DNA from: an uncultured Oscillospiraceae bacterium
GTDB lineage: Bacteria > Bacillota > Clostridia > Oscillospirales > Oscillospiraceae
NCBI GenBank assembly: GCA_947623875.1
Contig: CANQII010000005.1
Location: forward strand, 1 to 42,806
Reading direction: 5' to 3'
DNA length: 42,806 bases
Below the pieces are notes generated by a model, which saw only the letters and a program-made list of their open reading frames with translations, was not told the origin of the DNA and made no database searches. Below, in pieces: positions 3,226 to 6,165 of this stretch. Each line of letters opens with the position of its first letter. Position 1 is the stretch's first letter. Both the position numbers and the translations under genes were made by a program.

Positions 3226-3254
3226 TTGACTGTTGCGCTGCGATAAGCTATAAT
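3226..3254 (+). promoter_or_regulatory. Sigma-A promoter for the small Rpn-tail genes
   Basis: TTGACT - 17 nt - TATAAT. Confidence 0.7.
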
Positions 3255-3401: not shown

Positions 3402-3752
3402 ATGTGTGGATCCATTCAATTGATCATTGAGGATGAGGTAAAGAAGGAATTGGAGCGGCGCAGAAAGGAACGGCAAAAGGCGGCAAAGAAGGCAGCGCAG
3501 CAGGCTGTGGCTGCGGCAAAGAAGGCAGAGCGGCAGGCTGCAGCTGCGGCAAAGAAGCGGGTTGCAGCTGCAGTAAAGAAGGCGTATGAAGATCGCATGG
3601 TTTCCTGCCTTCTGAAAGTGATGAAGAATTATCCCTGCAGTCTGAAAGGCGCCATGGATCTATTGGGAGTCCCAAAGAACATGCGGCCCAAGTACGGGAA
3701 ATTGGTGAAGAAGGCACGCGCTGTGCAAACGGACGAGACAGCAGCATCGTGA
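3402..3752 (+). CDS. Small Lys/Ala-rich coiled-coil protein; stand-alone Rpn C-terminal-like domain
   Basis: RBS AGAGGAAG before ATG 3402 (MCGSIQLIIEDEVKKELERRRK...). Ends GAMDLLGVPKNMRPKYGKLVKKARAVQTDETAAS, resembling the tail of the ORF ending at 5717. Confidence 0.55.
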   Translation: MCGSIQLIIEDEVKKELERRRKERQKAAKKAAQQAVAAAKKAERQAAAAAKKRVAAAVKKAYEDRMVSCLLKVMKNYPCSLKGAMDLLGVPKNMRPKYGKLVKKARAVQTDETAAS

Positions 3753-3766
3753 AAGGACGTGTACTC

Positions 3767-3982
3767 ATGTGTGACTCAATGCGGGCACTGATCGAAAAGA
3801 AGAACCGTGAGCATGATGAAAAGAACAATGTCAGCTATATCATCCGGCTGGTAGATGAGATAGGCTTGACGGAGTCTCGGGCCATGGACATCTTCAAAAT
3901 CCCGGAGGAAGAGCGGCCCAGGTATGCAGCGCTGGTAGCAGCAGCACGCGCCGCGCAGACAGACGAGATGACAGCACCGTGA
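3767..3982 (+). CDS. Stand-alone homologue of the C-terminal domain of the downstream Rpn-family nuclease
   Basis: MCDSMRALIEKKNREHDEKNNVSYIIRLVDEIGLTESRAMDIFKIPEEERPRYAALVAAARAAQTDEMTAP is nearly identical to the last ~70 aa of the 4701-5717 ORF. SD-like AAAGGA lies upstream of ATG; GTG 3749 is an alternative start. Confidence 0.7.
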   Translation: MCDSMRALIEKKNREHDEKNNVSYIIRLVDEIGLTESRAMDIFKIPEEERPRYAALVAAARAAQTDEMTAP

Positions 3983-4629: not shown

Positions 4630-4658
4630 TTGACAGCCACCCCGCTCTGTTGTATAAT
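4630..4658 (+). promoter_or_regulatory. Consensus sigma-A promoter of the Rpn nuclease gene
   Basis: TTGACA - 17 nt - TATAAT, perfect match to consensus. Confidence 0.8.
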
Positions 4659-4700: not shown

Positions 4701-5717
4701 ATGGGTATGATTGACGACCTGGCGAAGAACTACTTTGACGATGACGCTGTGGTCGCAGACACATTCAACTACTTTCTTCGGAAGATGGGATGCACCACCT
4801 TGATTGATCCGAAACAGCTTTCCAAAATAAGCACAGAGCTGGAAGTCAGCATTCGAGTGAATCGCACTGTGAGAACGATGAACCGAATTAGGGATATCGC
4901 TCGGGAGTGGACAAGGCCCGATGGCACGAAACAGATACTGGTTCTTGGCTTGGAACTGCAGTCGTTCATTCACTACGCACTGCCTCTGAAAATCTTGACC
5001 TACGATGTGTTCACCCATATCGCGCAAGCCGAGATAATCGCAGCTCCTTTGAAGGATCCTGTCAAGATTGAGAAAGGAAGCGATGGCAAACCGAAGCTGC
5101 AATTCACGGAGGACGAATTCCTCTCTAAGTTCCCGAAAGGTGCAAAGCTGGATGACGTCCTGACACTCACAGTGTACCTCGGGGAGAAGCCTTGGGACGC
5201 ACCGCTGACGTATTTCGAATCGCTCAACATGAGCGAGGACGCGAAGAAGTACAAAAGCGATATCAGGTTCTACCTCATCGACCCCAGGGAAATCGATGAG
5301 GCCGATTTCGAGGGCTTCGAGACCGAGATCGGTGATGTGTACCGCTTTCTCAAATATCGGGACGAACAATTCGTTGATTCCCTGGATGACTTCCTGCAAA
5401 CCCACATAGGGATGACTCTCAGTGAGAAAGGCGCTAAGCTACTTCTCGCTTGCGGAGTTGAAGCGAACATAACGAAACCGACTTACACAGTGAAAGGGGG
5501 ACGTGTACTCATGTGTGACTCAATGCGGGCACTGATCGAAAAGAAGAACCGTGAGCATGATGTCAACCATATCATCCGGTCAGTGGATGTGCTGGGCTGG
5601 ACGGAGTCTCAGGCCATGGACTTCTACGAGATTCCGGAGGAAGAGCGGCCCAAGTATGCAGCGCTGATAGCAGCGGCACGCGCTGCGCAGACGAGCGCCG
5701 CAACGGCTGCTTCCTGA
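4701..5717 (+). CDS. Rpn-family recombination-promoting nuclease/putative transposase (PD-(D/E)XK)
   Basis: ATG 4701 (MGMIDDLAKNYFDDDAVVADTFNYFL...). Rpn-like block RDIAREW...KQILVLGLELQSFIHYALPLKILTYDVFTHIAQ and C-terminal block DSLDDFLQTHIGMTLSEKGAKLLLACGVE. Confidence 0.7.
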   Translation: MGMIDDLAKNYFDDDAVVADTFNYFLRKMGCTTLIDPKQLSKISTELEVSIRVNRTVRTMNRIRDIAREWTRPDGTKQILVLGLELQSFIHYALPLKILTYDVFTHIAQAEIIAAPLKDPVKIEKGSDGKPKLQFTEDEFLSKFPKGAKLDDVLTLTVYLGEKPWDAPLTYFESLNMSEDAKKYKSDIRFYLIDPREIDEADFEGFETEIGDVYRFLKYRDEQFVDSLDDFLQTHIGMTLSEKGAKLLLACGVEANITKPTYTVKGGRVLMCDSMRALIEKKNREHDVNHIIRSVDVLGWTESQAMDFYEIPEEERPKYAALIAAARAAQTSAATAAS

Positions 5718-5790: not shown

Positions 5791-5895
5791 TGTCATGTCT
5801 TGGACAGAATGGGAGATCATTGTACCGGATACGGGAAAACCACCAAACGCCAGGTGGCCTTGTGAAGAAATTCGGCAAAATCACAAATTTGTTGT

Positions 5896-5925
5896 TGACA
5901 GCACCCGGCTTCATCCCATATAATA
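5896..5925 (+). promoter_or_regulatory. Promoter of the glycine cleavage operon
   Basis: TTGACA - 18 nt - TATAAT, about 75 nt before the riboswitch. Confidence 0.7.
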
Positions 5926-5994: not shown

Positions 5995-6165
5995 GTGATG
6001 AAACCGAGAGAGACCGTGCAGAACGGCGCCGAAGGGGAATGCAGAAACTCTCAGGTACAAGGATCGGTTTCGGACGAAACTCCGGAAAGCATTGCGCACC
6101 GACGAGGCAATCTGTCCCCAGGGACGGAGAATCTTTCAGGTTTTGGTACGGAGGCACAGATCCTG
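5995..6165 (+). ncRNA. Tandem glycine riboswitch (gcvT motif, two aptamers)
   Basis: Aptamer 1: GAGAGACCGTG...GCGCCGAAGGGG...AAACTCTCAGGTACAAGGATCGG. Aptamer 2: CTCCGGAAAGC...GCACCGACGAGGCAATC...GGAGAATCTTTCAGGTTTTGGTACGGAGG. Directly upstream of gcvT. Confidence 0.88.

Follow-up and report, generated by a model that had tools for sequence, protein, structure and literature searches.

A candidate nested antitoxin start in a clostridial Rpn-type nuclease gene and the free copies of its tail

Introduction

Does the gene at 4701-5717 encode one protein, a nuclease, or two, the nuclease and a small inhibitor made from a start inside the same reading frame? The gene lies in a stretch of 42,806 nucleotides (the window) from a metagenome-assembled genome that is 75% complete. 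In the E. coli RpnL/RpnS systems (RpnA-E and RpnP2), the small protein RpnS inhibits cleavage, SOS induction and growth arrest (PMC10327210). For a C. difficile rpn gene cloned in E. coli, the published description reports that RpnS was made from an internal start and was lost upon mutation of the ribosome-binding site or the start codon (PMC10327210). The nested principle in E. coli and the expression of RpnS from the C. difficile gene, as described there, were thus already known. A sequence-only reading of the window had suggested that the same logic operates in this Firmicutes locus, a suggestion that is not new in kind because the C. difficile case had been published. Added here are codon evidence across a clade, a pair of tails predicted to be matched and mismatched, free copies located upstream, a nuclease-less sister locus and a cysteine motif. 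The features are collected in Table 1.

Table 1. Features of the candidate rpn locus, in window coordinates
Feature	Position	Strand	Basis or remark
rpnL, full-length Rpn nuclease, PD-(D/E)XK-type, 338 aa (putative toxin)	4701..5717	+	ORF, catalytic residues, PF04754 in relatives, model
Nested rpnS, 68-aa C-terminal protein from internal ATG (putative antitoxin); three predicted helices, the first long	5511..5717	+	
Shine-Dalgarno AAAGGGGGA of nested start, 9-nt spacer to ATG	5493..5501	+	-11.0 kcal/mol, best of 20
Freestanding rpnS, 71 aa, 76% identical to nested tail	3767..3982	+	
Shine-Dalgarno AAAGGA of the 3767 copy; shares the last base of the preceding gene's stop codon	3752..3757	+	
Extra 12 nt (4 aa) in helix 1 compared with the nested tail; precise register ambiguous	3818..3829	+	repeat spacing, anchor distance
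Second freestanding rpnS-like gene, more diverged, 116 aa, MCGSI...	3402..3752	+	tail match, 33-nt repeats
Promoter-like TTGACT-17-TATAAT before the free rpnS pair, 11/12	3226..3254	+	
Promoter-like TTGACA-17-TATAAT before rpnL, 12/12	4630..4658	+	

Assignment of the nuclease

The gene was filed as a putative Rpn gene, with the window protein itself scoring 13.5 bits against PF04754 (Rpn, YhgA-like, Transposase_31), below the cutoff of 21. Three of the four relatives scanned passed this profile with 23.6-31.2 bits, and the same scan of the paralog encoded elsewhere in the genome gave no match. Residues D5, D65, E85 and Q87 were invariant in a 32-row alignment of relatives. They aligned with D11, D63, E82 and Q84 of E. 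coli RpnA, in an alignment that was itself weak (E 0.0036, probability 9%); mutation of these four RpnA residues abolished or altered RpnA activity (PMC5350276). The predicted model of the 338-aa protein had a pLDDT of 82, and the structural matches of residues 1-216 were mostly nucleases of the PD-(D/E)XK fold (EndoMS/NucS, PaqCI, McrC, Card1 and SduA), with a moderate best Z of 6.8. A Foldseek search with the same residues returned no match with E below 0.001.

Other collections gave little. No match was found in NCBIfam, no useful model match in PADLOC, no relative in the PDB by sequence search with the window protein or the 32-row profile, and no match when genome contigs were scanned once with a single protein and viral contigs twice. 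Plasmid and phage records yielded two remote tblastn matches each, and a relative on a Selenomonas plasmid carries the NCBI name Rpn family nuclease. The clostridial Rpn clade is largely missed by current profile libraries. Shorter Rpn-like reading frames (approximately 250-265 aa, reverse strand, loci L004 and L017) were also observed, in the window genome and in the sister genome; they end before any RpnS-like tail.

An internal start behind a Shine-Dalgarno sequence

The stretch AAAGGGGGACGTGTACTCATG occupies 5493-5513, and its ATG at 5511 is codon 271 of the long reading frame. The proposal that an in-frame ATG behind a Shine-Dalgarno (SD) sequence inside the rpn gene opens a 68-aa tail was borne out by the sequence and the reading frame. 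Among the in-frame start codons of the gene, the one at 5511 had the strongest SD pairing, the next reaching -6.1 kcal/mol. When the single gene was shuffled synonymously, the SD at 5511 was not significant (P=0.37). Taken by itself, the nested site is modest sequence evidence; its significance comes from the comparison with the family. An equally good ATG or GTG in the last 110 codons was found in 108 of 210 rpn genes, as against 1 of 30 other genes of the window and 2 of 294 genes flanking the loci of relatives, these two groups serving as the background. An internal promoter upstream of 5511, which the E. coli data would lead one to expect, was not detected beyond chance, and single RNA folds around the starts showed neither clear sequestration nor clear exposure.

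Selection on the internal start among related genes

The family set was composed of Rpn genes from the searched genomes and from named genome contigs, the latter mostly of Lachnospiraceae and other clostridia. Of 203 related Rpn genes, 182 had their best internal in-frame SD and start 3' of the nuclease domain, compared with approximately 37% expected. The two partly overlapping sets, which have a few genomes in common, gave 110/124 (37% expected) and 72/79 (36% expected). Position 2 of the tail was Cys in 179 of the 203 genes (TGT in 127, TGC in 52), an amino acid that makes up about 1% of these proteins overall.

To avoid choosing the site by its start codon, 147 non-redundant genes were anchored on this downstream Cys motif, with success in 125. 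The residue preceding the conserved Cys was Met encoded by ATG in 96 genes and Val encoded by GTG in 23, so that ATG or GTG stood there in 119 of the 125. Where Val occupied the anchored position it was written GTG in 23 of 24 cases, compared with 33% of the Val codons in the rest of these genes (p=1e-10). The mean SD energy of the anchored genes was -10.2, compared with -7.1 +/- 0.19 for synonymous shuffles (z=-16), and the SD core was found in all three codon registers (70/42/8 genes), encoding Glu-Glu, Gly-Gly or other residues according to the register. The encoded amino acids therefore vary while the RNA signal stays. An earlier run of the anchored codon analysis with 87 genes had the same outcome. 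Judged from these codon statistics, the nested start signal is under selection at the RNA level.

The purine-rich run could instead be kept for reasons of the protein, or for ribosome pausing at the domain junction, with a separate small protein being unimportant. Its purine-rich codons for Lys-Gly-Gly/Glu and the single-gene shuffle would agree with such a constraint. We consider it highly improbable, since the SD register and the encoded residues vary and the synonymous shuffles are far weaker. Moreover, the codon after the SD is ATG or GTG, with the marked preference for GTG at Val, and the same block provides the only good start of the free copies described below. The internal starts of E. 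coli and C. difficile are also reported, in the published descriptions, to be used. The codon statistics point to selection on a nested antitoxin start across a large clostridial clade, beyond the few genes tested so far.

The tail as an RpnS-like protein

The tail formed helices at residues 271-298, 302-308 and 313-337 in the full-length model and at 3-28, 32-38 and 46-67 in a model of the tail alone. RpnAS was published as a three-helix protein with a long first helix (PMC10327210), and the RpnS fold is a three-helix bundle that dimerises via helix 1 (PDB 7TH0); the modelled tail resembles RpnAS in having three helices, the first of them long. A fold search with the tail did not have 7TH0 among its matches. 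Helix-turn-helix-like folds did match the tail with Z up to 5.2; these matches prove nothing.

In E. coli, helix 1 of RpnS changes length in steps of four residues, which have been linked to pairing specificity (PMC10327210). Among close tails here, 30 of 31 pairs differed in length by a multiple of four residues, and the exceptions to the four-residue step were the 3402 copy and L115. From the Met to an anchor in helix 2, the window contains 20 residues in the nested tail and 24 in the free 3767 copy; the sister species (G029) has 16 and 20, and the second rpn locus of the window genome has 16, 16 and 20. Together with the codon conservation in about 200 genes and the catalytic residues, the length rule argues strongly for the earlier proposal of an RpnS-like antitoxin start nested in a Firmicute Rpn nuclease.

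The domain DUF4351 (PF14261) has been used as a name for free RpnS, but in some species only (PMC10327210), and RpnS is therefore not defined by it. The domain had no match at E up to 1 in the small proteins (P0002, P0003 and P0004).

Free copies of the tail upstream of the nuclease gene

The block that opens the nested tail recurs upstream as GTGAAAGGACGTGTACTCATG...GATG at 3749-3818. Sixty-four nucleotides were 100% identical between the two sites (3755-3818 and 5499-5562); a further 133 nt downstream (3828-3960 and 5560-5692) shared 85% identity. The claim that the same block begins the free gene at 3767 therefore stood in respect of this identity, but the GGG that had been bracketed within the block is absent from the free gene. 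The start-to-start spacing shifted from 1744 to 1732, and the free gene therefore carries a 12-nt insertion. As a counterpart of the nested gene, the 3767 copy supports the start signal, whereas its product is four residues longer in helix 1. A nuclease remnant in the frame upstream of 3767 was considered but dropped, since the part that aligned belongs to the 3' end of the 3402 gene, read in a different frame.

The last 60 or so residues of the 3402 product matched the nested tail weakly (30% identity, E 5e-6). At 3480-3545 this gene contains 33-nt (11-residue) tandem repeats, which form an Ala/Lys-rich extension of helix 1 that is off the four-residue step.

In the E. coli RpnC system, RpnS with one more repeat no longer neutralised RpnL, except when RpnL had that repeat too (PMC10327210). 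The 3767 product is predicted to be mismatched to the RpnL of the window because its four-residue insertion in helix 1 is of the kind that abolished neutralisation of RpnC. By this analogy, the cognate antitoxin would be the nested 5511 protein and not the 3767 product. With a tail predicted to match (5511) and one that is a step longer (3767), 76% identical to each other, the locus lends itself to testing the four-residue specificity rule.

It is quite conceivable, though we lean against it, that the two free copies are inactive debris of duplication and that the nested RpnS alone matters. Truncated rpn remnants and a frameshifted ortholog of the 3402 gene lie at the same site in the sister species, the tail evolves fast (dN/dS 0.4-1.0 between copies, compared with 0.06 for gcvT), and the 3402 gene has diverged and encodes an Ala/Lys-rich product. 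On the other hand, both copies in the window retain an open frame, an SD, a start and Cys2, with the 11/12 promoter match upstream; dN/dS between 3767 and the nested tail was 0.44; and the second rpn locus, too, has a pair of free copies upstream, each with a perfect SD. At the other extreme, the upstream copies might be deliberately off-register, serving not against their own RpnL but as immunity to different RpnL variants, or as regulators by titrating the nested RpnS. Nuclease-less arrays, such as the one in the sister species, would then be immunity-only loci. Cys2, which would be N-terminal after removal of Met, could act as a redox or thiol switch that governs the release of the toxin. 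We hold this elaborate reading to be unlikely.

The second rpn locus, the sister species and more distant relatives

A second rpn locus in this genome (G000:C34, L022) encodes a protein 29-31% identical to the window Rpn. It carries AAAGGAGGTACCGAT-GTG-TGC inside the rpn gene, and the identical block precedes two free rpnS copies upstream, one of which matches the nested tail in length while the other is longer by four residues. Across L022:707-898, 949-1152 and 2116-2304, the AAAGGAGGTACCGAT-GTG start block is present three times. Elsewhere, about a dozen of the 194 loci contained free rpnS copies, most of them downstream.

In a sister species of the same genus (G029:C65), the same chromosomal site was recovered, its flanks showing 90% and 89% identity. 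There rpnL lacks codons 1-200, the tail is kept with its SD and start, a second tail copy is present, and the ortholog of the 3402 gene is frameshifted. This nuclease-less site was seen on the reverse strand (L015, G029:C65:5000-12000), its two tail copies having 16 and 20 residues from Met to anchor. The dN/dS of the tail region, which evolves fast, was 0.53 between the species.

That the sister species lost the nuclease and retained the tails suits an antitoxin. The nested protein could also be made and yet be a helper subunit that RpnL requires, much as Cas10d requires Cas11d, instead of an inhibitor. Helper subunits can arise from internal starts (Cas11d, cited in PMC10327210), a helper would be indistinguishable from an inhibitor by sequence alone, and strong conservation of the start fits both. 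This possibility seems improbable to us because the E. coli small protein is an inhibitor and because the free copies in the window and the sister species, with the nuclease lost and the tails retained in the latter, fit an inhibitor better than a helper. The sister locus is a natural case in which to ask whether RpnS proteins on their own give protection from foreign Rpn nucleases.

Directly downstream of the window rpn gene, tandem glycine riboswitch aptamers (5995-6153) precede the gcvT/glycine cleavage operon; a TTGACA-18-TATAAT match at 5895-5924 belongs to this operon.

Proposed mechanism and comparison with known systems

With high confidence, we propose that the 4701-5717 gene is a two-in-one rpn toxin-antitoxin gene encoding RpnL and RpnS. 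Initiation at 4701 would give RpnL, a PD-(D/E)XK endonuclease bearing the catalytic residues aligned above and, at its C terminus, an oligomerisation tail; initiation at the ATG behind AAAGGGGGA, the start signal with its RNA-level selection, would give the tail alone. The long first helix of RpnS would pair with the tail of RpnL, its length being set by the four-residue quantum seen among close tails. RpnS may then block the nuclease, with RpnL being freed under some condition, probably phage infection. DNA cutting, toxicity, binding, inhibition, release and phage defence are expected here by analogy with the E. coli work. The copying visible upstream duplicated the start signal and the tail as free cassettes with their own putative promoter, 3402 being the older one; the 3767 copy gained one four-residue step, which would put it off-register for the RpnL of the window.

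The similarity of sequence between the E. coli Rpn proteins and the window protein is weak. In common they have three predicted tail helices with a long helix 1, the four-residue steps and the catalytic D/D/E-x-Q, and in E. coli RpnA, too, the domain junction carries an internal in-frame start, AAGGAGAGTTTA-ATG. Free rpnS copies occur near some rpn genes in both, those described in E. coli lying downstream of rpnC and rpnE and the two of the window upstream. The C. difficile gene, compared by its published description, likewise comes from a Gram-positive class of host and has an internal-start RpnS. A literature search of incomplete coverage returned no later work extending the nested RpnS principle.

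The Rpn-type genes of Lachnospiraceae and other clostridia (L033-L250) belong to the same clade and have the same junction, xx-SD-xx-M/V-C-x-A. They differ from the window gene in that their products are 23-30% identical to the window protein and that their free copies, if present, are mostly downstream. A near-invariant Cys follows the internal start directly in the window (5514-5516), in the nested tails of these genes and also in free copies. At this position, near-invariant in clostridial tails, E. coli RpnA has Thr, and the main text of Zhong et al. 2023 does not mention the residue.
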